A stretch of DNA of 64,000 nucleotides, taken from positions 3,658,001 to 3,722,000 of the forward strand of contig NZ_JAGIOI010000001.1 of NCBI RefSeq assembly GCF_017876675.1. The letters run 5' to 3'. Below the pieces are notes generated by a model. That model did not search any database. It was not told where the DNA came from and worked only from the letters and a program-made list of their open reading frames with translations. Every line of letters starts with the position of its first letter. Positions within the stretch are counted from its first letter, which is position 1. This document shows, piece by piece, positions 27,885-39,292 of this stretch. Position numbers and translations under genes: made by a program. Origin of the DNA: Arthrobacter stackebrandtii (GTDB lineage: Bacteria > Actinomycetota > Actinomycetes > Actinomycetales > Micrococcaceae).

Positions 27885-30038
27885 ATGGCTGATGCACTGA
27901 ATCATGACGCACCCGGCGAGGGCGTGCAGATGAGCCTGCTCAGCGGCTTTGTGGCGAAGGAACGCGTGGCTGACCCCCACAGCGGCGTGGTCCTGGCCCC
28001 GTCCCTGCCCGTGGCGCACGTGGTCATCGACTCGCCGCTGCCGCACCTGGACCGGATCTTCGACTACTCCGTGCCCCTCGAGCTCGACGCCGAGGCGCAG
28101 CCGGGAGTGCGGGTGCGGGTCAAGTTTTCCGGCCAGGACCTCAACGGTTTCCTGGTGGCGCGGGCTGCGGTTTCCGAGAGCGAGCGGCTGGTTCCGCTCG
28201 CACGCGTGTACTCGGCCGTGCCCGTGCTGGCACCGCAGGTCCTGGAGCTGGCCCACCGGGTGGCAGCACGCTACTGCGGAACCGTCGCCGATGTCCTGCG
28301 CGTCGCCGTTCCCCCGCGTGTTGCCAGCCTGGAAAAGGTGTACCTGAAAAAGTTGGCCGTCGACGCTGCGGCGGCTGCCGCTGCCGGCGCCCCGGGGGCA
28401 CCTCCCGAGCCGGTGCCGGACATGCCGGATGCGCCCAGGCCCGGCCACTCGCTTTTCGCCGACTACCCGCATGCCGAGGACTTTCTCACCCGGCTGGCCA
28501 TGGGGGAGAGCCCCAAGGGCGTCCTGGGAGCCCTACAGGGCTACGGCGCCGGCTCATGGCAGCACCAGGTGGCCCAGGTTGTGGCGTACTGCCAGCTTTC
28601 CGGCCGTGGCGCCATTGTGGTGGTGCCCGACCTGCGCGACCTCGACCTGCTCGAGCGGGCCTTCGCATCAATGCTGCCGGCGGACAGCTTCGTCAAGCTC
28701 ACCGCAGACGACGGCCCCAGCGCCCGCTACGCCAACTTCCTAAAGGTCTTGTCCGGGGACGTAAGGATCGTGATCGGCACGCGGTCGGCAGCCTATGCAC
28801 CCGTCGCGGACCTGGGGCTCGTGGTGTGCTGGGACGACGGCGACGAACTCCATGTTGAGCGCCGGGCACCGTACCAGCACAGCCGCGACGTGCTGCTGCT
28901 GCGCTCCGAGGTGGAAGGTGCGGCCGTGCTCATGGCCGGCCACAGCCGCAGCACCGAATCCCAGCGGCTGGTGGCCACGGGCTGGGCCCAGGAGATCACC
29001 GCCGCCCGCCCCGCCGTGCGCAAGGCCACGGCCCGGGTCATCAGCACCTCCGATTCCTTCGAGCAGGAACGGGACCCGGCCGCCGCACTGGCGCGGCTGC
29101 CGCACCGTGCCTGGGCCACGGCCAAGGCGGCCCTGAAATTCGGTCCGGTCCTGGTCCAGGTGGCACGGACGGGCTACGCGCCGGGGCTGGCATGCCAGCG
29201 CTGCCGGGAAGTGGCCAGGTGCCGGCACTGCACGGGGCCGCTCATGCAGTCGCGGGCCCCGGGCTCCTCCTCCACCATGGTGACCTGCAAGTGGTGCGGG
29301 CAGGCCGAAACCGCCTTCAGCTGCCCCACGTGCGGATTCAACCAGTTGCGGGCCATCGCCGTCGGCGCCCTGCGGACAGCCGAGGAGCTGGGGCGGGCCT
29401 TTCCCTCCGTTCCCGTGGTGTCCTCGTCGGGCGACCACATCAAGGCCACGGTTCCGGACAGGCCCTCGATCGTGGTGGCCACCATCGGTGCCGAACCCGT
29501 GGCCCCGCACGGCTACGCCGCCGCCCTGCTGCTCGACGGCGACTCCATGCTGCGCCGTGAATCGCTGAGGGCGGGGGAGGAGGCGCTGCGGCGCTGGATG
29601 AATGCCGCGGCGCTTGTTAAGCCGGCCAGGGACGGCGGCATGGTGGTGGTCACGGCGGAGGAATCCGTGGAGGTCGCCGCGCTGGTCCGCTGGGACCCGG
29701 CAGGCCACGCGGAACGGGAATTTGCCCTGCGCCATGAGCTGGGACTGCCGCCCGCCATGCGCCTGGCATCATTGACCGGGTCCGAATCCGACGTGGCAGC
29801 CTTTGAGGCGGCCCTGAAGCTGCCGGCAGCCGTGCGCAGCATCGGGCCCGCGCCGGTCATGTCTCCCTTGGCCGGGCCGGCCACGGATGAGGTGCCCGAC
29901 TACAGGACCATCCTGCTCTTTCCCTACGCCATGGCTGCGCAGGTCACGGCCGACATCCGGGCGCTGAAGGCTGCCAATGCCGCACGCAGGATCGGCTCGC
30001 CGGTGCAGGTGCGGTGCGACGGCCTCGACGTCCTTTAA
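27885..30038 (+). CDS. priA: Primosomal protein N' (PriA), helicase-motif-deficient actinobacterial form
   Basis: PriA restarts collapsed replication forks. The 717 residues contain the 3'-DNA-binding N-terminal domain (HVVIDSPLPHLDRIFDYSVP, GVRVRVKFSGQDLNGFLV) and an eight-cysteine zinc region (CQRCREVARCRHC, CKWCGQ, CPTC). The ATPase motifs are gone: the Walker A position reads GYGAGSWQHQVAQ with no GKT, and the DEEH box is WDDGDE. Actinobacterial PriA proteins typically show this loss, so it likely acts as a loading scaffold. GGGAGGACC precedes the ATG. Confidence 0.92.
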   Translation: MADALNHDAPGEGVQMSLLSGFVAKERVADPHSGVVLAPSLPVAHVVIDSPLPHLDRIFDYSVPLELDAEAQPGVRVRVKFSGQDLNGFLVARAAVSESERLVPLARVYSAVPVLAPQVLELAHRVAARYCGTVADVLRVAVPPRVASLEKVYLKKLAVDAAAAAAAGAPGAPPEPVPDMPDAPRPGHSLFADYPHAEDFLTRLAMGESPKGVLGALQGYGAGSWQHQVAQVVAYCQLSGRGAIVVVPDLRDLDLLERAFASMLPADSFVKLTADDGPSARYANFLKVLSGDVRIVIGTRSAAYAPVADLGLVVCWDDGDELHVERRAPYQHSRDVLLLRSEVEGAAVLMAGHSRSTESQRLVATGWAQEITAARPAVRKATARVISTSDSFEQERDPAAALARLPHRAWATAKAALKFGPVLVQVARTGYAPGLACQRCREVARCRHCTGPLMQSRAPGSSSTMVTCKWCGQAETAFSCPTCGFNQLRAIAVGALRTAEELGRAFPSVPVVSSSGDHIKATVPDRPSIVVATIGAEPVAPHGYAAALLLDGDSMLRRESLRAGEEALRRWMNAAALVKPARDGGMVVVTAEESVEVAALVRWDPAGHAEREFALRHELGLPPAMRLASLTGSESDVAAFEAALKLPAAVRSIGPAPVMSPLAGPATDEVPDYRTILLFPYAMAAQVTADIRALKAANAARRIGSPVQVRCDGLDVL

Positions 30039-30270
30039 CCCCTCCGACCCTGTATCAACTCTGGCACATTCTCCTGGCACGCGGTCAGTTCTGGCCCTGC
30101 GCTGCCGCGGCCACAGGCTCGGTCACCGAAACGGTGGTGAACAGGCGAAAGGACGGGAGGCGCAACCCCCGCTTTGTGCCCGAGAAGCCCAGTGCCGTCG
30201 TTCTCCATGCCGGAGCTGATACCAAGCCTGTGGAATGGCCGCCAGAAGTGATTCGCTGTCGTGGGGAAGG

Positions 30271-32760
30271 TTACCTTGCTGTCCGCACGCCGGCGAGGAG
30301 TTTTTGGCTGCGCCGCTCAACGTCCGAATCGGTGCCGGTGAGGGCTGCGACAAGGTGAACAAATCGTTCCACTTGAGCCGAATAGTCCCCGTCGAGGCGC
30401 CCTGCCAATGGAGTGGCGGCCAGGGCATCGCGCTGGCGGCAGGCTATGGTGAGGGCGCTTTCGAAGATCCGTTGTTCGGTTTCGGCGCTGTTGGCGGAGG
30501 GCCCGGTGCCGAGGATTGCCACGGCGTTGATCCGGGTCTCGTCCAGACCCAGCAAGAGCCTGTCCAGTTCCTTGTTTGTGTACCGCAGTTCGGCCGACCT
30601 GACGCCAAAACGGCCGAGTCGGGTCGACATGGCGGATACGTAGATTGCTGCCATGGCCAGGAGCGCCAGGCTCAGTGCAATGGTCGTTGTCAGGAGCAAC
30701 AGCTTTGCAGCTTCACTAATTTGCGGCTCGGCATAGTTGTTGTTTTGCAGGCCGCGGGCAAGATCTCGCATTGCGGAGCCAACTTCAACGCCACCGTTGT
30801 TTGAGAAGTAGATTTTGCTCAGGCCGAAGAGGCGATTTCCATTCCACGCCGCCTCGCCTCTGGAAACTGCTCCTGGCAAGACTGTTGGGGCGCTGAAGAA
30901 GTTACCGGAGCTACGAAAAACGGGAATGATTGCTTGGTCGAGTTGCAGCTCAAGGCCATGTTGATCGTGCAGTTGCGGGAACTCGGCCTTGATGCGCCAC
31001 AGCGCGGCAAGGAACTTCTCAGGGTCTATTTCCTCGAAGGGACCATGGTCGGCACCATGGCCAGGAATGCCGAGATAGTCCTTGGCGTCGCGCACTGCCA
31101 CGGTTATGTGAACGGAATCTGAAAAAGAATTTTGAAAGTACCCTTCGATCAGATCTATGTCAATGTTGGAGGTGTCTCCGTCATATTGGACCGACGCTGG
31201 TGGCAGCTGGCCGGCAAGCTTGGAAGTGGGTCCGTCGTCGGAGGCAGCAACGATGAAGGTACTGGCGAGGAATGACAGGACCAGAATGGCCCCGCCGCCA
31301 ACAAAAATGGTGGATTTTTCGCGCAGGAACTCCACGGGTGTCTGGGTGGCGCGCGTAGATGGAGTTCTCCGCGAATCGGTGCGGGGCAGGGGCTCATGGT
31401 TCCGCGCCACAACGAGTGGCAATGCGGCCATCGCCGTTTCCATGGCACTAAGCACATCCTGCGAGAGCGTGGGGGGCAGTCCCATGCTTTTGCGCAGTTG
31501 GCTGAAATCCTGTGTGGCCGGTGCCGGTGGCGGGACGGGCCCCCGGACCTTTTTGACGAGTGTGCGGGCAGCTGCCTTCGCGCTGCGAAGGAGTTCCAGC
31601 TCGGCCTTGCCCCACGCGGCGAGAGTCTCGGTACCGCCAGTTCCACTGCCGGGAACGCTTAGCAGGGATTCCAGTGAACTGCTCAGCCACTTCACCCGGT
31701 GTTCGGCGATGACGCCGGGAGGACGGTCATTGAGCTCCACCAAAAGTGCACGGCCTGCCAGCGCGATAGGCATGGCCAACTGATCTAAAACGCCGCTGCT
31801 CCCCTTGAATCCACTCCACACGGTGCTGGCGTTGCTGAGCGCCGCGGCTTTCTGTTCCAGCGTCTGTGCGCTGCGTTCGAATTGCGAAACCATTGTTTCG
31901 GTCTCGATTCTCAAAGCCGTCCGGGCGCTGTAAACAGCTGCCATGGTTGCGTCCTCCGTGCGCGCCAACGCGAGCGTGTCCTCGCGAATATCGGTCCACG
32001 TGGTGTCCAGCCCGGCTGTTCCACCCTGCTTTTGGGCCGTCCAATAGCTCGCCTCGAGCGCCTCCAGTTCAAGCACGCCGGCGGCCAATTGGCTTTGTGC
32101 CTTCGTCAACCTATGGAAGAGCTGCTCACGGCGCCTGCGCCGGGAGAGCGAGTACGCCAAGGCTGCGATTGAAAGAGCCAGCCCAATGATTGTGCCACCG
32201 AGCCAGAAGGAAAGATCTTGCAGGGGCGCTTCATCCAGGACGGTGGCTGCACGTTCTGCCGCTGCGGCTACGGCCTTGGGGCCATGGCCCAGTACCACGT
32301 TGTCTGAATAGGAATCGGCGACCTCTTCGGCCAACGAATTGTTGTAGCTGTCCAGCCGTGGGTCGACGGCGGCGCCGGCATGGCGCTGGTCCGGCAGGTT
32401 GTCATCCTTGGAGCCCGGCAAACTCTCCAGGCTTGAAGTCTTGGTTGTCAGTATGGCGTCGGCACCCAAATCGAGCCCGCCCCTTTTTTCGTCACTGCGC
32501 AGACACCTGTCGGTGACGATTAGGCGAAGCGGGCGCCACGTGGTGATTGGCTGCGGCATGACGGCAGCAAGCGATTCGGCACTGATCCCATACGGATGCT
32601 CGGTGCCCTCAAGGACAATCTCCAGCTGGGCTGTCTTCGTGGCCGCCATGGATGTCCAGCCCTGCATGGCAAAGGCTGCAGTTGCCACACCCAGCAGAAC
32701 GGCCAACCACGGCAGCCCAAAGTGTGGCTTGCGCCGGGCACGGATCAAGGAAATGCTCAT
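30271..32760 (-). CDS. Giant four-helix membrane protein of unknown function, paralog 2
   Basis: 829 residues, colinear almost without gaps with the upstream paralog. Layout: cytoplasmic RARRKPHFG, helix 1 (about 15-35), extracytoplasmic module A (about 40-185), helix 2 (about 186-205), RRRRR stop at 207-211, a long cytoplasmic helical region (212-480), helix 3 (about 484-506), extracytoplasmic module B (about 515-685), helix 4 (about 687-709), and a cytoplasmic tail with LLLGLDETRINAV. I do not recognise it firmly; it may belong to what databases call DUF5129. Last gene of the minus operon, 42 bases after its paralog. Some stretches are notably AT-richer than neighbours (about 45% GC at 31081-31140). 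Confidence 0.85.
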   Translation of the reverse strand: MSISLIRARRKPHFGLPWLAVLLGVATAAFAMQGWTSMAATKTAQLEIVLEGTEHPYGISAESLAAVMPQPITTWRPLRLIVTDRCLRSDEKRGGLDLGADAILTTKTSSLESLPGSKDDNLPDQRHAGAAVDPRLDSYNNSLAEEVADSYSDNVVLGHGPKAVAAAAERAATVLDEAPLQDLSFWLGGTIIGLALSIAALAYSLSRRRRREQLFHRLTKAQSQLAAGVLELEALEASYWTAQKQGGTAGLDTTWTDIREDTLALARTEDATMAAVYSARTALRIETETMVSQFERSAQTLEQKAAALSNASTVWSGFKGSSGVLDQLAMPIALAGRALLVELNDRPPGVIAEHRVKWLSSSLESLLSVPGSGTGGTETLAAWGKAELELLRSAKAAARTLVKKVRGPVPPPAPATQDFSQLRKSMGLPPTLSQDVLSAMETAMAALPLVVARNHEPLPRTDSRRTPSTRATQTPVEFLREKSTIFVGGGAILVLSFLASTFIVAASDDGPTSKLAGQLPPASVQYDGDTSNIDIDLIEGYFQNSFSDSVHITVAVRDAKDYLGIPGHGADHGPFEEIDPEKFLAALWRIKAEFPQLHDQHGLELQLDQAIIPVFRSSGNFFSAPTVLPGAVSRGEAAWNGNRLFGLSKIYFSNNGGVEVGSAMRDLARGLQNNNYAEPQISEAAKLLLLTTTIALSLALLAMAAIYVSAMSTRLGRFGVRSAELRYTNKELDRLLLGLDETRINAVAILGTGPSANSAETEQRIFESALTIACRQRDALAATPLAGRLDGDYSAQVERFVHLVAALTGTDSDVERRSQKLLAGVRTAR

Positions 32761-32802
32761 GTGTTCACATACTTCGTCGAAGGGGGAGGCAACCGCGTGA
32801 GT

Positions 32803-35325
32803 TTAGCGTTTTCTGTGCGGGGCGTTGGGGGGCCTGCCAAAGCTGGCGTCCAGGAGCCTGCGGCTTTGCCGTTGCACGTCGTTGTCACTGGTGGCCAAGG
32901 CCGTGGCGAGATCGGCCAGCTTGCTGACCTGGGCCGCGTAGTCTGCACTGAGGCGCTGTGCCAGGGGAGTTGCGGAGAGGGAATCCCGCAGACGCCAGGC
33001 CATGGCGAGTGCGCCCTCGAAAATGCGTTGGCCGGTTTCGGCGCTGTTGGCGGCCGGGCCGGCGCCCAGGAGCATTACCGCGTTCAGTCGGGACTCATCC
33101 AGTCCCAGCATGAGCTTTTCCAGTGTCCGGTTGGCGGCACGGAGGTTCGCGGAGCTTCGGCCAAAGCGGCCCAGTTGCGTAGACATGAGTGAACCGTAGT
33201 AGATGACGAGGACAAGCAGGAGTGCAGACAGCGACACTGCCAGGGTCAGCAACCAGAATTTCAGGCCCGATCCAATGCGAGGTTCTTGGAGACCGTTGTT
33301 TTGGAGCCCCCTGGCAAGGTCCTCAAGGGCATCGACGATCTTGTAGTCGCCGTAGTCGCCATAGTCGCTGAAGCCGTATATGCCGTGTTTCCAGCGCCCG
33401 TCGTTGAGCCACGAGACCTTGCCCAATGCCAAGGCGCCGGTGATCACCGTCGGGGCACTGAACCTGTCATCGGCGGTGCGGAAAACAGGAATGATGGCCT
33501 GCTCGGCAGACATTTCCAAGCTTTCCGGCTCCAGCAGGGCCGGAAACTCCTGCTTGATGCGCCATAGGGCATCGAACAACACCTGTGGATCATTCTCACC
33601 CACGGCGCCATAGTCGGGTGACTCACCCAGGGCACTCAGATACTCGTCCGCATCGCGGATGGCCACTGTAATATGCATCGGACGCGAAAACGCGGTGGCC
33701 ACGTTTCTGCGAATGTAGTCCGTGTCGAGGCCGGTGGTGTCCCCATCGAAGAGCAACGATGCCGGTCCTTGCTTGCCCTTGAGTTCCCATTGCGGCGAAT
33801 CACCCAGCCCGGCCAGGACGCTGCCACTAACGATCATGGCGACCACCACAGTGGCGGCACTTCCAATGATCCACACGGTTTTATCCCGGATGGCCAAACC
33901 GCCCACGAAAGCAGCCACGCCAGCCACGACGGAGCCGGCCGAGGCTCGATTCGAGATGCCCCGCACCTTGTCAAAGACCTCCGGCAGGGCCAGATTCGCC
34001 ATGTCGAGCGCGGCCAGCAGATCGCGTGAGAGGGCTGGCGGCAGTCCAAGGCCGCGCCGGATCTCGCTGTGGTCATCGTACTGGCGTTTGCTGCGGGCCA
34101 GCGGATGCTTGAGGTGGTGGCGGAGCGTTCGGTTGATTGAGCTGACCTGGCGCAGGAGCTCGGTTTCGCCAGCCCGCCAGGCGGCAATTGTTGCCGCGCT
34201 TTGCCCTCCACGTCCCGGCACGCCAAGCAGTGTCTCCAACGCTGTCCGCAGGGCGGCCACACGCTTTTCCCTGATGACGCTGCCCGGCCGCTGCTCCAGC
34301 GTGGCAAGAAGCTCCTTGCCGCCCAAGGCAATCGGCGCAGCCAGGCGCTCCAAGACACTGCGGCCACCGGCAAAGCCACCCCGAACAGAGCTGGCCGCCA
34401 TGAGCGCCTCCGCTTCCCGTGCCAGCCGCGCAGCCTTCGTGGCAAAGTCGGCCACCATGGTGCGCGTGTCCTGACGCAGTGCCAGCCGGGAGTCGTAGGC
34501 GGCGGCCACGGTGGCGTCCTCGGTACGGGCCAAGGCGAGCGAATCGTCCCGGATCACGGCCCACGTCGCAGCGAGGGCCGAATTTTCGTCTTGGTCCACG
34601 GCACTGTGGTAGCTCGCCTCGAGTGCCTCGAGTTCAAGCACGACGCCGGCCAGCTGGCTTTGCGCCGCAGCGAGGCTGTGGAAGAGCTGCTCACGGCGAC
34701 GCCGCCGCGACAGCGACCACGCCAGGGCAACGATGGAAAGAACCAGCCCAGCAACAAAGCCGGTGAGCCAGAACGCAAGGTCTTGTATGGGCCCGCGGTC
34801 CACAAGGTCGGCGGTGCGTTGCGCTGCAGCCGCCACGGCCCCAGGCCCGTGACCCAGGGCAAGGTTGTCTCTATAGGCGTCGGCCAGATCAAATCTGTCG
34901 TAGCGGGCCTCACCCGAAGAATGCCCGTAGATCCCTGCGCCTGTGAAACGCCGCTCCGGCGGTCGCTCAGCAGCGGCCAGCTGGGAGGTGTCAAGGGGCG
35001 TCAGTGCCGTGCTGAGGATGGCGTCGGCACCCGGATTGCTGCGGCCGCTGAGTTCGTCATGGCTCAGCAAGCGATCCGTCACGAGCAGCCGCATTGGCCG
35101 CCACGTGGCAACCGGCCCCGGCAATGCTGCAGCAACGGTCTGGGCATTGATCCCGTACGGGTGATTGCTGCCCTCGACAATGATCTCCAGTTGGGCGGGC
35201 TTGTTGGCCGTCATGGCCTGCACCCCTGCAATGCCAAAGCCGGCCGTCGCAACACTTAAGATGAAGGCCAGCCAGGGCAGGCCAAAATGAGGCCGCTTCC
35301 GGACCCCAATGAGCTGGGTCGTCAT
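32803..35325 (-). CDS. Giant four-helix membrane protein of unknown function, paralog 1
   Basis: 840 residues. Helix 1 (about 15-35) follows VRKRPHFG; module A (about 43-180) contains EIIVEGSNHPYGIN and WRPMRLLVTDR and ends LALGHGPGAVAAAAQR; helix 2 is about 186-205, then RRRRR. A helical cytoplasmic region (QSQLAGVVLELEALEASY; LALARTEDATVAA) leads to helix 3 (about 484-506). Module B (about 519-685) repeats a SRPMHITVAIRDA version of the module A core. Helix 4 is about 689-710, and the tail holds GLDESRLNAVMLLGAGPAANSAE. Its ATG overlaps the glycosyltransferase stop (ATGA), so the two are translationally coupled. Function unknown. Confidence 0.85.
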   Translation of the reverse strand: MTTQLIGVRKRPHFGLPWLAFILSVATAGFGIAGVQAMTANKPAQLEIIVEGSNHPYGINAQTVAAALPGPVATWRPMRLLVTDRLLSHDELSGRSNPGADAILSTALTPLDTSQLAAAERPPERRFTGAGIYGHSSGEARYDRFDLADAYRDNLALGHGPGAVAAAAQRTADLVDRGPIQDLAFWLTGFVAGLVLSIVALAWSLSRRRRREQLFHSLAAAQSQLAGVVLELEALEASYHSAVDQDENSALAATWAVIRDDSLALARTEDATVAAAYDSRLALRQDTRTMVADFATKAARLAREAEALMAASSVRGGFAGGRSVLERLAAPIALGGKELLATLEQRPGSVIREKRVAALRTALETLLGVPGRGGQSAATIAAWRAGETELLRQVSSINRTLRHHLKHPLARSKRQYDDHSEIRRGLGLPPALSRDLLAALDMANLALPEVFDKVRGISNRASAGSVVAGVAAFVGGLAIRDKTVWIIGSAATVVVAMIVSGSVLAGLGDSPQWELKGKQGPASLLFDGDTTGLDTDYIRRNVATAFSRPMHITVAIRDADEYLSALGESPDYGAVGENDPQVLFDALWRIKQEFPALLEPESLEMSAEQAIIPVFRTADDRFSAPTVITGALALGKVSWLNDGRWKHGIYGFSDYGDYGDYKIVDALEDLARGLQNNGLQEPRIGSGLKFWLLTLAVSLSALLLVLVIYYGSLMSTQLGRFGRSSANLRAANRTLEKLMLGLDESRLNAVMLLGAGPAANSAETGQRIFEGALAMAWRLRDSLSATPLAQRLSADYAAQVSKLADLATALATSDNDVQRQSRRLLDASFGRPPNAPHRKR

Positions 35326-36449
35326 GGCTGGGTGCGCAGCTCCTCCGCGATCGCCAGCAGCTCCCGTGCGGAGGAATCCCAGCTGAACGTGGCCGCCTGG
35401 GCCACGGATGCCATGGAGCTTGCAGCCCATTGGCCCGGCTCTGCCAGCGCCTGCACCGCTGCGGAGAAGCCCGACGGCGAATCGGCTGCCACATAGTGCG
35501 CTGCCGTGCCGCCGACTTCCCGGAAGATGTCGGTGTCGGCCACCACCACGGGGGTGCCCAGTGCCATGGCCTCAACGAGCGGCAGCCCGTAGCCCTCGGC
35601 CTTGGACAAGGTGACCAGGGCAGTGGTGCGCAGCAGCAGCTCGTCGTACTCCGCGTCGGACACGCCGTTGTGGAACACCACCTGCGCCCCGTCGGGCACC
35701 AGCGCTTCAAGCTCCGCGCGCCGCCCGGGGGTGATGCGGCTGAGAAGGTGCAGCGTGAAGTCGGGCAGCCCTGCCATGCCGCGGATGAGCGTTTCCACGT
35801 TCTTGTACGGCATGAACGAACCCATGTAGGCCAGCGACTTCTCGGGCGCCACCGACGGGTCCCGCGGCGTCCGTTCACCCTGGGGAGCGTTGCCGATGAT
35901 GCGGACGGGCCTCTTCGTCAGTCGGTGTTTGCCCATCAGCGAGAGTGTCGTGTTGCTGATGGTCGCCACCACATTGGCACGGTTGAGCAGCACCCGCTGC
36001 GGCCAGTACGCCTTGTGGTAGAGACGCCACAGCAGGCGCACCGGCGCGGGAAGGAAGCCGGGGGGAGCCGGGTGCTCGTAGTAGATGAGGTCGTGCAGGG
36101 TCAGCACCAGCGGATACTTGCGCCCCCAGCTGCCCATGGTCTGCATGGGGCAGAACACCAGGTCGGCGTCGAGCCTGTTCACGTGCCGGGCCACAAACAG
36201 CTCCATGGGGGACAGCGGTGAGTTGACCTTCACCCAAGGCAAGTCCGGCAGCAGCGCCAGCTGGCGTTCATCATGAATGAGCATTGTCACATCCGCATAA
36301 GGTGCGACGGCGGCCATGAGGCTTGCGCCGTAGCGGCTGATGCCGTCGTGGTGGTCCATGCGGGTGAACCTGGCATCCATGACGATGCGCGGCCGGGTGC
36401 CGGCCGGTGTTTCGCCGGCGTGCTGCTGTGGGGGGACGGGCGGGGTCAC
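35322..36449 (-). CDS. GT4-family glycosyltransferase
   Basis: 375 residues with the two-domain GT-B layout of family 4. The N-terminal half includes DARFTRMDHHDGISRYGASL and LTLHDLIYYEHPAPPGF. The C-terminal half has AYMGSFMPYKNVETLIRGM and the nucleotide-sugar E-x7-E motif in SKAEGYGLPLVEAMALGTPV. It probably transfers a sugar from a nucleotide donor to a surface glycan or lipid; donor and acceptor are unknown. GTG start within the hydrolase stop (GTGA). Coupling to the two membrane proteins suggests cell-envelope work. Confidence 0.88.
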   Translation of the reverse strand: MTPPVPPQQHAGETPAGTRPRIVMDARFTRMDHHDGISRYGASLMAAVAPYADVTMLIHDERQLALLPDLPWVKVNSPLSPMELFVARHVNRLDADLVFCPMQTMGSWGRKYPLVLTLHDLIYYEHPAPPGFLPAPVRLLWRLYHKAYWPQRVLLNRANVVATISNTTLSLMGKHRLTKRPVRIIGNAPQGERTPRDPSVAPEKSLAYMGSFMPYKNVETLIRGMAGLPDFTLHLLSRITPGRRAELEALVPDGAQVVFHNGVSDAEYDELLLRTTALVTLSKAEGYGLPLVEAMALGTPVVVADTDIFREVGGTAAHYVAADSPSGFSAAVQALAEPGQWAASSMASVAQAATFSWDSSARELLAIAEELRTQP

Positions 36450-37405
36450 GGGGCGGGGTGCCTTTCCAGGAAGTTGTTGATGGCCTCGGCGGCGGGCTCC
36501 GGCGTCTCGTAGTGGATCAGGTGGCCCACCTTGTCGATGACCACGAGTTCACCGTCGGGCAGCAGCCCAAGCAGCTTGTGCTGGTTGGGAAGGGTTGCAA
36601 TCTCGTCCTCGGACCCGGCAATGAGCAGGGTGGGCAGCGCCAGTTTGGCTGCGACCTCCCGGACGGTTCCGCTGACGGATGCCTGGAATGCCTCCAGCAG
36701 CATGTCCCGGTTGGCGAAGCCGCTGAAGTAGGCGTGGTGCTGTCCGTGGATGAAGGCCAGCAGCGCCTTGTCGCGCGTCTTCGCCATGGTCACGCTCATG
36801 ACGTAAACAATCAGCTTGCTGCGCAGCAGCGCATTGCCCAGCCGGGCCGGCAGCCTGGCAGAGGCCCAGTAGTAGAAGACCGCCAGCTTGGTCATGACGC
36901 CCTTGGGCCCCTCCAGGGCGGGGGAGGCGATGGGGTTGACCAGGATGAGCGGGAAGACGCGCCCCGGGTTGGCCGCAACAAAGTGGCTTGTCACGATGGA
37001 GCCGAAGGAGTGGCCCAGCAGGACTGTGTCCGGGCCGAGCCCCAGTGTGTCCAGGAAGCTGGCGAGGAAGGCACCATAGCCCGGAACGTCGTGCCGGCCA
37101 GTTCCGTGGGTGCCCGGGGCAAACGCGGGGGAGGCGCCAAAGCCGGGGAGGTCGGGCATGATGATGCGGTGTTCGGGGAGCAGCTCCACCACCCTCTCGA
37201 GGCCGTGGTGGTCGCCGCGGAAGCCGTGGACCATGACGATCGTGCGGCTGGCTGGCGTGTCACAGGCCGGGGCATACTCCCAGTAGTGGACCCGGGTGCC
37301 GGAGCAGTCCGCGGTGCGAGCGGTGGCCCGGTCCGCCAGGTCCACGGCGATGGGTGCGCCGTCCGCCGTCGAACTTCGCTTGAAGGGCAGGAACTTCAGG
37401 GCCAC
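36446..37405 (-). CDS. Alpha/beta hydrolase
   Basis: 319 residues with the fold's landmarks: VMVHGFRGDHHGLERV (oxyanion region), nucleophile elbow GHSFGS (S133), acid candidate in AGSEDEIATLP and the histidine in IDKVGHLIHYETPE. A cap-like helical insertion lies around FYYWASARLPARLG. There is no signal peptide, so it is probably cytosolic. The substrate cannot be told. GTG start two bases after the aldo/keto reductase stop. Confidence 0.88.
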   Translation of the reverse strand: MALKFLPFKRSSTADGAPIAVDLADRATARTADCSGTRVHYWEYAPACDTPASRTIVMVHGFRGDHHGLERVVELLPEHRIIMPDLPGFGASPAFAPGTHGTGRHDVPGYGAFLASFLDTLGLGPDTVLLGHSFGSIVTSHFVAANPGRVFPLILVNPIASPALEGPKGVMTKLAVFYYWASARLPARLGNALLRSKLIVYVMSVTMAKTRDKALLAFIHGQHHAYFSGFANRDMLLEAFQASVSGTVREVAAKLALPTLLIAGSEDEIATLPNQHKLLGLLPDGELVVIDKVGHLIHYETPEPAAEAINNFLERHPAP

Positions 37406-37407
37406 GG

Positions 37408-38241
37408 CTAGTTGACCTCATTGGGGTGCGAGCCGGACCGCTGCCCGCGGTCCAGGGAGTCAATCTCGGCCATCTGGGCGTCGCTGAGGGCAAAGCCAAA
37501 CACGTCCAGGTTCTCGGCGATGCGGGTCGCAGAGCTGGCCTTGGGAATGACCAGGTGGCCCGACTGCACATGCCAGCGCAGCACCACCTGGGCCACGGAC
37601 CGGCCCACTGCGGCGGCCACGGAGGCAAGCACCGGGTCGGTGAAAATGGCGCCGCGGGCCAGCGGGCTCCACGCCTGGGTGGCGATGCCCAGCGAGGCAT
37701 GCAGCTCGCGCAGTTCCACCTGCGCCAGCCACGGATGCAGCTCGACCTGGTTGACGGCCGGCACCACGTCGGTGGCGTCAAGCAGGCGGTGCAGGTGCTC
37801 GGGCTCGAAGTTGCTTACGCCGATGGCCCGCACCCGGCCGTCGCGGTACAGGGACTCCAGGGCCTTGTACGTGGGGATGTACAGTTCGCGCGCCGGGGCG
37901 GGCCAGTGGATGAGGTACAGGTCCAGGTAGTCCAGGCCGAGCTTTTCCATGCTCGCGTCAAAGGCGGCCAGGGTGGAGTCGTAGCCCTGTTCCGTGTTCC
38001 ACACCTTGGAGGTGACAAACAGCTCCTCCCGCGGCGTGCCGGCAGCCACCGCGCCGCGGACCGCCGCACCGACGCCCTCCTCATTGGCGTAGAGGGAGGC
38101 CGTGTCCACCGTGCGGTAGCCGGCATCGATGGCCGTGGAGACCAGTGCGGCGCAGTCGTCGGCGGGGACCTTGTAGACGCCGTAGCCGAGGACATCGATG
38201 GCCGTGCCGTTGTTCAGTGTGTGTTTGGGGGAGCGTTGCAT
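37408..38241 (-). CDS. Aldo/keto reductase, 2,5-diketo-D-gluconate reductase type
   Basis: NADPH-dependent carbonyl reductase of the AKR5-like group, 277 residues. The catalytic tetrad is visible: Asp in TVDTASLY, Tyr in SLYANE, Lys in VTSKVWN and His in YLIHWP. IGVSNFEPEHL and IPKASSATRI mark the cofactor site. The physiological substrate is unknown. It begins 18 bases after the SorC regulator and continues the minus operon. Confidence 0.92.
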   Translation of the reverse strand: MQRSPKHTLNNGTAIDVLGYGVYKVPADDCAALVSTAIDAGYRTVDTASLYANEEGVGAAVRGAVAAGTPREELFVTSKVWNTEQGYDSTLAAFDASMEKLGLDYLDLYLIHWPAPARELYIPTYKALESLYRDGRVRAIGVSNFEPEHLHRLLDATDVVPAVNQVELHPWLAQVELRELHASLGIATQAWSPLARGAIFTDPVLASVAAAVGRSVAQVVLRWHVQSGHLVIPKASSATRIAENLDVFGFALSDAQMAEIDSLDRGQRSGSHPNEVN

Positions 38242-38259: not shown

Positions 38260-39270
38260 TCAGGCGCCGTCAAGGCCGTGCAGGAAGCCGAAGATGGGGT
38301 CCGTGGCGGCGCTGTCCTGCTCCACCAGTTCACGGGCGGTGGTCTCGTCCAGGATGAGGTCCGTGGCGAGCCCGGCGGCCAGGGCACCTCGCAGCCCGGT
38401 GATCTTCTTGCTGCCGGACACCACGCAGATCCGGCGCCGGACCCTCCGCAGGCTGTCCAGGCTGGGCCCGCTGGTGCGCTCGTTGAGCACAATGCCGTCG
38501 TCGCTGCCGTCGGAGCGGAAAAACACGGTGGCCACGTCCCCGGCGACACCGCTGGCCTCAAGCGCCTCGAGGTCGGTGGAGTCAAGGTAGCCGCCGCTGT
38601 AGACGTGGCTGGGGATGTCGGCATCCATGGAACCCACCCCGAAGATGGCGATCGTCATGCGCTCCTGCAGGTCCAGGATGCGGCGGACGCTGCGCTCCTG
38701 CCACATCATCGCCTTTGTTTCGGCCCGGTCAAAGAAGGCCGGGACCGGGAACTGTTCCACCTTCGCCCCGTAGGCGGTGCCGAAGCGGCGGATGATTTCC
38801 GAGGCGTAGGTGATGCCGGAGGTCTGCGTGTTGCCGGCCCCGTTGAGCTGGACGATCGTGGTGCCGTGCGTGGTCTTCCTGGTGAGGTGGCGGCTGACCG
38901 TGCTGACTGTGGAGCCCCAGGCGACGCCCACCACGGCGTTCGAGTCCACGAGGGGGCCGATGGTCCGGGCTGCCTGCATGCTGACCCGCTCCAGCACCTC
39001 GACCTCGCTGAGCATGTCGGAGACCGGCACGACATGGACCTCCACCTTGTAGCGCTTGCGGATGACCCGTTCCAGGTCGGGGGCGCGGTCCGCCGGGGTC
39101 TTGATCTGGATTTGCACCAGGCCAGTCTCGCGCGCCATGGACAGGAGCCGGGAAACAGTTGAGCGGGACGTGCGCAACTCCCGTGCAATCGCATCCATGG
39201 TTTGGTCCTGCAAGTAGTACATTTGTGCAGCACGCAGCGCATCCTGCTGCTTAATCCGCTTAGTTGGCAT
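38260..39270 (-). CDS. SorC-family sugar-binding transcriptional regulator
   Basis: 336 residues: an N-terminal helix-turn-helix (about 23-44, MDAIARELRTSRSTVSRLL) and a SorC effector domain related to sugar-phosphate isomerases (VVGVAWGSTVSTVSRHL, ICVVSGSKKITGLRGALAAG). Such proteins usually respond to a phosphorylated sugar or polyol. It is divergent from glpD, so glycerol-3-phosphate is a reasonable ligand guess. The ATG at 39270 has AAAGG 11 bases upstream; a TTG 9 bases earlier is too close to that site. Confidence 0.9.
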   Translation of the reverse strand: MPTKRIKQQDALRAAQMYYLQDQTMDAIARELRTSRSTVSRLLSMARETGLVQIQIKTPADRAPDLERVIRKRYKVEVHVVPVSDMLSEVEVLERVSMQAARTIGPLVDSNAVVGVAWGSTVSTVSRHLTRKTTHGTTIVQLNGAGNTQTSGITYASEIIRRFGTAYGAKVEQFPVPAFFDRAETKAMMWQERSVRRILDLQERMTIAIFGVGSMDADIPSHVYSGGYLDSTDLEALEASGVAGDVATVFFRSDGSDDGIVLNERTSGPSLDSLRRVRRRICVVSGSKKITGLRGALAAGLATDLILDETTARELVEQDSAATDPIFGFLHGLDGA

Positions 39271-39292
39271 GAGAAGCAACGCCTTTCTGCAC

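Follow-up and report, generated by a model that had tools for sequence, protein, structure and literature searches.

Twin-unit TPM/DUF5129-like membrane proteins encoded in tandem beside a conserved glycosyltransferase block in Arthrobacter stackebrandtii

Two neighbouring genes in the window (the whole 64,000-nucleotide stretch that was analysed) encode long paralogous membrane proteins, DUFa and DUFb, each built from two copies of one TPM/DUF5129-like unit as judged from profile comparison. The reading we favour, for which confidence and doubt are about balanced, is that both are twin-TPM membrane proteins that may act as a non-enzymatic scaffold or chaperone, separate from the GT4 glycosyltransferase block beside which they stand.

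Gene layout and internal duplication

On the minus strand, the transcription order is regulator, aldo/keto reductase (AKR), alpha/beta hydrolase (ABH), GT4 glycosyltransferase, DUFa and DUFb, with gaps of 18, 2, –4, –4 and 42 bases. The regulator (38260..39279), which has an HTH and a sugar-binding domain (PF04198), lies upstream of the AKR (37408..38241), ABH (36446..37405) and GT4 (35322..36449), all three identified by Pfam. DUFa (32803..35325; 840 aa) was delimited by ORF, Pfam and its AlphaFold2 model, and DUFb (30271..32760; 829 aa) by ORF, Pfam and alignment. PriA, a primosomal protein found by Pfam on the plus strand (27885..30038), forms the far edge of a variable GT4-priA interval. 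The DUFa ATG at 35325 overlaps the GT4 stop by 4 bases, and ABH and GT4 overlap likewise by 4 bases. Both overlaps, and the two genes of 840 and 829 codons, are as the initial annotation had described them. The mechanical ORF of DUFa comprises 875 aa with a start further upstream; its 840 aa are counted from the ATG at 35325.

Pairwise alignment of DUFa and DUFb gave 48% identity and 64% similarity over 843 columns with 39 gap positions, at the sequence level an identity far beyond chance. The two had been called colinear over their first 530 residues with almost no gaps. They do align there, yet that limit was too short, because the alignment covers all 843 columns and the similarity runs end to end; over this full length the 39 gap positions temper the second part of the description. 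The RRRRR stretch at residues 207–211 and the tail motif GLDE[ST]R[LI]NAV were reported correctly for both proteins, the latter reading GLDESRLNAV (741–750) in DUFa and GLDETRINAV (738–747) in DUFb. A DUFa search returned only these two copies in the 4.43 Mb single-contig genome.

Hydropathy bears out the four hydrophobic helices previously noted in both proteins, and adds a fifth, weaker segment at 461–479 in DUFa alone, where the AlphaFold2 pLDDT is under 50. The AlphaFold2 model of DUFa (33 sequences, mean pLDDT 79, pTM 0.62) has helices starting at 18, 183, 482 and 686, which are the four transmembrane (TM) places. In the first half, the model predicts a helix at 18–39, an alpha/beta module at 44–180, a long helix from 183 and a helical bundle up to ~460. 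The second half follows with a helix at 482–507, a second alpha/beta module at 520–680 and, from 686 on, a long helix followed by a helical tail. The C-terminal flank of TM2 carries a charge of +4 in both DUFa and DUFb, and that of TM4 charges of +2 and +3. These flanking charges place the N-terminus, the RRRRR stretch and the tail in the cytosol; therefore both modules would face outward, in a topology read from charge only. Module A is encoded at 34780..35208 in DUFa (alignment coordinates and structural matches) and at 32215..32643 in DUFb (alignment A3). Module B lies at 33274..33792 in DUFa (AlphaFold2 model and alignment coordinates) and at 30718..31227 in DUFb (alignment coordinates and homology between half A and half B), all on the minus strand.

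The profile of residues 1–478 matched that of residues 478–838 at 82.9% over 273 columns, which span TM, module, TM and juxtamembrane helices. Reversed profiles reached at most 0.9%, and none of 30 local column shuffles exceeded 4.8%. The alignment behind this comparison has 58 rows, with certain loci in twice as L and G copies. Moreover, the LAGVVLELEALEASY stretch behind TM2 recurs in the tail motif as a second copy; the LAGVVLELEALEASY stretch in turn aligns with SVSLDLPVTELNA of the canonical DUF5129 protein. By profile comparison, DUFa and DUFb are each shown to be two copies of a unit with the order TM helix, extracytoplasmic module, TM helix and cytosolic helical bundle. TM segments, profiles and alignment together support the earlier description of a tandem paralogous pair of membrane proteins with twin modules.

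Family placement

The initial annotation had suggested that the family may be DUF5129 (PF17173). As a Pfam match this is marginal, since DUFb scores 27.8 bits and DUFa 24.0 bits against a curated cut-off of 27.3, which leaves DUFa below it; the link itself holds at the level of profiles. A canonical DUF5129 profile built from 31 proteins (441–499 aa as cut) matched half A at 96.9% over 274 columns of TM and helical region (controls ≤1.5%) and half B at 26.1% (controls up to 8.3%). The same profile matched TPM proteins (PF04536, 30 rows) at 92.9% over 151 columns (controls ≤8.3%). Compared with TPM profiles directly, the long proteins gave at most 3.9% and module A alone gave nothing, and a Pfam scan (E up to 1) returned no PF04536 row for DUFa or DUFb. 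The chain of sequence evidence from the long proteins through DUF5129 to TPM is transitive. Because the canonical DUF5129 profile matches both TPM proteins and half A, DUF5129 appears to belong to the TPM family as one of its branches, of which the long proteins seem to be a doubled version. The assertion that no characterised homolog exists was therefore too strong, the TPM family having solved and partly characterised members.

Whole units were compared because comparisons between module profiles were not strong enough to decide the matter: TPM against canonical DUF5129 gave 40% and canonical DUF5129 against module B 19%. The search with each module that had been recommended thus yielded nothing for module A and a weak match for module B; the DUF5129/TPM link came from whole units. 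A TPM fold of the extracytoplasmic modules is supported but not proven. The best structural matches of DUFa module A are TPM-fold entries, and for module B there are the strand and helix order, taken from the full model only, and a weak profile probability of 19–21% to the canonical DUF5129 module. Foldseek found no significant PDB match for the whole DUFa model (best E 0.32). The whole-protein VIA rows, which are helical regions of unrelated proteins (adenylosuccinate lyase and fumarase among them), were discarded. In PDB sequence searches the genome's own TPM domain matched 2kpt (E 8e-6); those with module A, profile A2, profile A3 and the genome's own canonical DUF5129 protein gave nothing convincing. 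NCBIfam, PHROGs and PADLOC held no family for DUFa or DUFb.

Distribution, pairing and the glycosyltransferase block

The long family occurs in 53 of 295 family genomes and 11 of 32 genera, remnants included (E up to 1e-20). Of 198 genomes sampled from the order, 2 have it, and these belong to the same family. Scanning named genomes yielded 25 loci, of which 24 are titled Arthrobacter, Glutamicibacter, Paeniglutamicibacter, Micrococcus or Micrococcaceae MAG. The 25th is titled Sporosarcina, and its sequence has the same size as contig 13 of G012. Within the window's genus, the long gene is present in 7 of 23 genomes: the window's own with two copies, G011, G012 and G016 with whole genes, G020 with a split one, and G001 and G022 with remnants. 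Alignment A2 comprised 20 of the 25 named-genome loci and 11 of 13 search proteins beside both window proteins (P0001 is DUFa, P0003 a shorter DUFb); it leaves out L105 (internal stops), L114 (contig-cut), L101, and L119 and L121, whose match spans are not one open frame. In a tree of 40 rows, built without the split G020 copy, without the remnants and without most further family genomes, DUFb groups with P0002, and DUFa is the sister of the two (100/100 at each of these nodes). The duplication is therefore older, preceding the split from P0002. A recent duplication within this species alone was rejected, as the grouping of DUFb with P0002 excludes DUFa.

The initial annotation proposed a system coupled to GT4, a proposal that would fall if the paralogs usually stood apart from it. 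In the neighbourhood survey, the long gene stands directly after GT4 in this genus only. GT4 itself (E up to 1e-60) is near-universal in the family and independent of the TPM-type pair, being present in 270 of 295 family genomes, against 53 for the long gene, and in 23 of 23 of the same genus. At all 23 long-gene loci surveyed outside the genus (20 genomes, 13–16 kb fetched each), tblastn found no GT4 homolog near the long gene; this set leaves out L068–L071, L074 and L092, more distant DUF5129-type long proteins of 72–192 bits. The long gene occurs without GT4 in 13 of 46 long-gene genomes outside the genus, nine of them found directly (G089, G093, G112, G116, G151, G165, G179, G193, and G066 with a partial long gene) and four by elimination (G205, G216, G234, G260). 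Even on one contig the two can stand far apart, by 0.88 Mb in G194. The block of GT4, ABH and AKR is kept in 22 of 22 other genomes of the genus (in G005 with GT4 in two pieces), and 16 of 23 have it without any long gene. In 11 of these 16, where both edges are present, the GT4-priA interval spans 3 to 8482 bp and contains, by Pfam, an HNH/DUF222 protein in one genome. Permease- and transposase-like ORFs were also read by eye in this interval. The GT4 coupling is a feature of one genus, and the best explanation is that GT4, hydrolase and reductase form a separate conserved block that TPM-type genes joined here.

Outside the genus, the long gene keeps other company. In 13 of the 23 loci it follows a protein of ~500 aa on the same strand (L063 with a weak, 63-bit match), and for the family of this protein the profile match to canonical DUF5129 is 97.3%, although one reversed control reached 15.7%; the other 10 loci have no DUF5129-type neighbour. 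Tandem long pairs occur in G148 and, among the more distant long proteins, in G032 (L068). Since pairing of TPM-type units recurs, the suggested heteromer of the two long proteins gains support, short of proof. DUFa and DUFb may act together, and a heteromer would offer four modules, a weaker point than the scaffold or chaperone role. More tentatively still, and we think it rather unlikely in so specific a form, Micrococcaceae may have evolved a dedicated machine for membrane-complex assembly or repair from TPM-type units only, combining a four-TM twin-unit subunit with a further TPM-type subunit. The second subunit would then be a twin-unit protein here and a one-unit protein in Glutamicibacter, and each heterodimer would offer three to four extracytoplasmic modules to one client complex while spanning the membrane.

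Possible functions and comparison with known systems

An assembly-chaperone role has been proposed for the TPM-pspA partnership in an excerpt of PMC11237479, and TLP18.3/Psb32 is described in part of PMC13089150 as contacting photosystem II assembly intermediates. On these grounds we favour, by analogy, a scaffold or chaperone that would act without enzymatic activity. Like the TPM proteins at photosystem II, and as is proposed for pspA-linked ones, DUFa and DUFb would hold a partner membrane complex by their extracytoplasmic modules while it is assembled or repaired, and their cytosolic bundles would connect this complex with a partner in the cytosol or at the membrane surface. The genome's one clear pspA (C1:2850234-2850926) adjoins the ordinary TPM gene, which lies 230 bp upstream on the same strand. 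It is ~0.84 Mb from the long pair, which has no such neighbourhood.

That the modules are instead extracytoplasmic enzymes hydrolysing phosphate esters or nucleotides seems unlikely. Pfam does name the TPM family TPM_phosphatase (PF04536), and works cited in excerpts of PMC11237479 and PMC13089150 report acid phosphatase as well as ATPase/ADPase activities, but a later analysis, as excerpted from PMC12419801, considers phosphatase activity unlikely for the TPM domain. Furthermore, an Asp-containing stretch near the module start (VEDGAGIL in the genome's own canonical protein) is recognisable in module B (FDGDTTGLD) and gone from module A (VEGSNHPYG), and the modules are less conserved than the TM and juxtamembrane parts. 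The disputed phosphatase assignment and this loss make an enzymatic role less likely.

The layout of module, TM and helical part, twice over, would also suit sensors of an extracellular ligand whose cytosolic bundles pass on a signal, and Foldseek with the whole model listed PilJ chemoreceptor rows, though not significant ones (E 0.32 and 0.89). However, the Pfam scan found no HAMP, kinase, cyclase or chemoreceptor signalling domain, and an ECF sigma factor-like ORF (by eye, cluster c24) stands at 5 of the 23 loci outside the genus and is missing, as clustered, from the other 18, so we hold sensing to be doubtful.

Patchy spread, with the G001 and G022 remnants and the split G020 copy, could instead point to surface genes of an accessory or defence type that occupy a variable slot in the chromosome, are dispensable and persist for conflicts specific to a lineage. 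The variable GT4-priA interval with its other ORFs in 11 genomes of the genus fits such a role, as does the identity of 43–44% to G012, the genome with the most similar flanks, where ten other window proteins share 88–98%. Against it, neither PADLOC nor PHROGs gave a match, most fetched loci of genus g45 have a one-unit partner and dehydrogenase-type genes (by eye) beside the long gene, and divergence is not concentrated in the exposed modules; we see little likelihood in it. Hypervariability of the exposed modules was considered and is not supported by the conservation comparison.

Least probable of all is a single envelope glycosylation machine with DUFa and DUFb as membrane scaffolds of the GT4 transferase, a reading already largely refuted by the distributions above, despite the GT4-DUFa overlap, a long gene or remnant directly after GT4 in 7 of 7 same-genus genomes that have one, and, as excerpted from PMC7775120, the C. 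glutamicum DUF5129 gene cg3192, which adjoins glfT2 with a transposon from a cell-wall screen between them, its target ambiguous.

DUF5129 gains a likely home in the TPM family. Among the literature matches listed, with subscription papers and preprints outside their scope, no description of a doubled TPM/DUF5129 protein was found. To our knowledge, few clients are known for TPM proteins outside photosynthesis, and a lineage in which the unit is doubled, paired and sometimes lost is one where a client can be sought by deletion and pull-down.

Among known systems, chains of the mycobacterial bcc:aa3 supercomplex (6adq_J, 6hwh_O, 8ovc_a, 8hcr_J), which are presumably the TPM-like PRSAF1, differ in having 142–145 residues. 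Rv2169c is presumably also PRSAF1. A link to respiratory complexes is tempting and would rest only on fold similarity to these chains. Excerpts on Rv2169c (PMC6656915) and PRSAF1 (PMC11964921, PMC11189923) were not used as evidence. Psb32/TLP18.3 (8c7i), photosystem II assembly and repair factors, differ in their photosynthetic partner, and no sequence signal to them was found. The genome's own 676 aa TPM protein (PF04536) shares the TPM module, TM and long helical part, linked through canonical DUF5129, but has one module, and it is to this family that the long proteins have no direct profile link. Closest are the canonical DUF5129 proteins, which share the TM and juxtamembrane motif (SVSLDLPVTELNA in the genome's own canonical protein, LAGVVLELEALEASY in half A, LEKLMLGLDESRLNAV in half B) and the helical bundle, across the 274 aligned columns. 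Whereas canonical proteins of ~480–560 aa have one unit, and the genome's own has a hydrophobic signal-like start and a Gly/Ser-rich tail, DUFa and DUFb lack both of these features and have two units.

The variable interval between GT4 and priA

Within the genus, the interval between the GT4 glycosyltransferase gene and priA, which in the window (30038-35322) holds the long twin-unit genes DUFa and DUFb, is a variable slot (counterpart in loci L147-L162). In 11 same-genus genomes that lack a long gene, the GT4-priA spacing ranges from 3 to 8482 bp. Pfam identified an HNH/DUF222 protein inside the interval in one same-genus genome, and permease- and transposase-like ORFs were read there by eye in further ones.

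The long gene forms two separate open frames in G020 (L061) and is reduced to remnants in G001 and G022 (L090 and L091). These split and remnant genes probably reflect gene decay, with an assembly error as a possible alternative for G020 alone. The long protein (window 30271-35325) shares just 43-44% identity with the copy in G012 (L060); for ten other window proteins compared with G012, the values are 88-98%. This low identity would reflect either fast evolution or replacement.

A conserved regulator ahead of the reductase

A gene for an HTH/sugar-binding regulator (PF04198; 38260-39279) lies 18 bp ahead of the aldo/keto reductase gene and is divergent from a gene of the FAD-dependent, glycerol-phosphate oxidase type. 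A PF04198 regulator holds the same position in 22 of 22 other same-genus genomes.

Long genes and canonical DUF5129 at other loci

In a different genus (g36), long twin-unit genes again stand in tandem, as a pair at G148:C33:11552-16958, and one copy has an in-frame TGA. In 5 of the 23 loci outside the genus (L073, L076, L078, L084 and L088), inspection by eye picked out an ECF sigma factor-like ORF (cluster c24) close to the long gene. A Micrococcaceae-type locus (L098) is present in a record titled Sporosarcina beigongshangi REN13, a title that is probably wrong.

The canonical, one-unit DUF5129 gene of the window's own genome, within C1:2178108-2184475 (L093:7109-13476), adjoins Wadjet-type genes: one encodes JetD (PF09983 together with DUF3322), another a large ATPase resembling SbcC/MukB.
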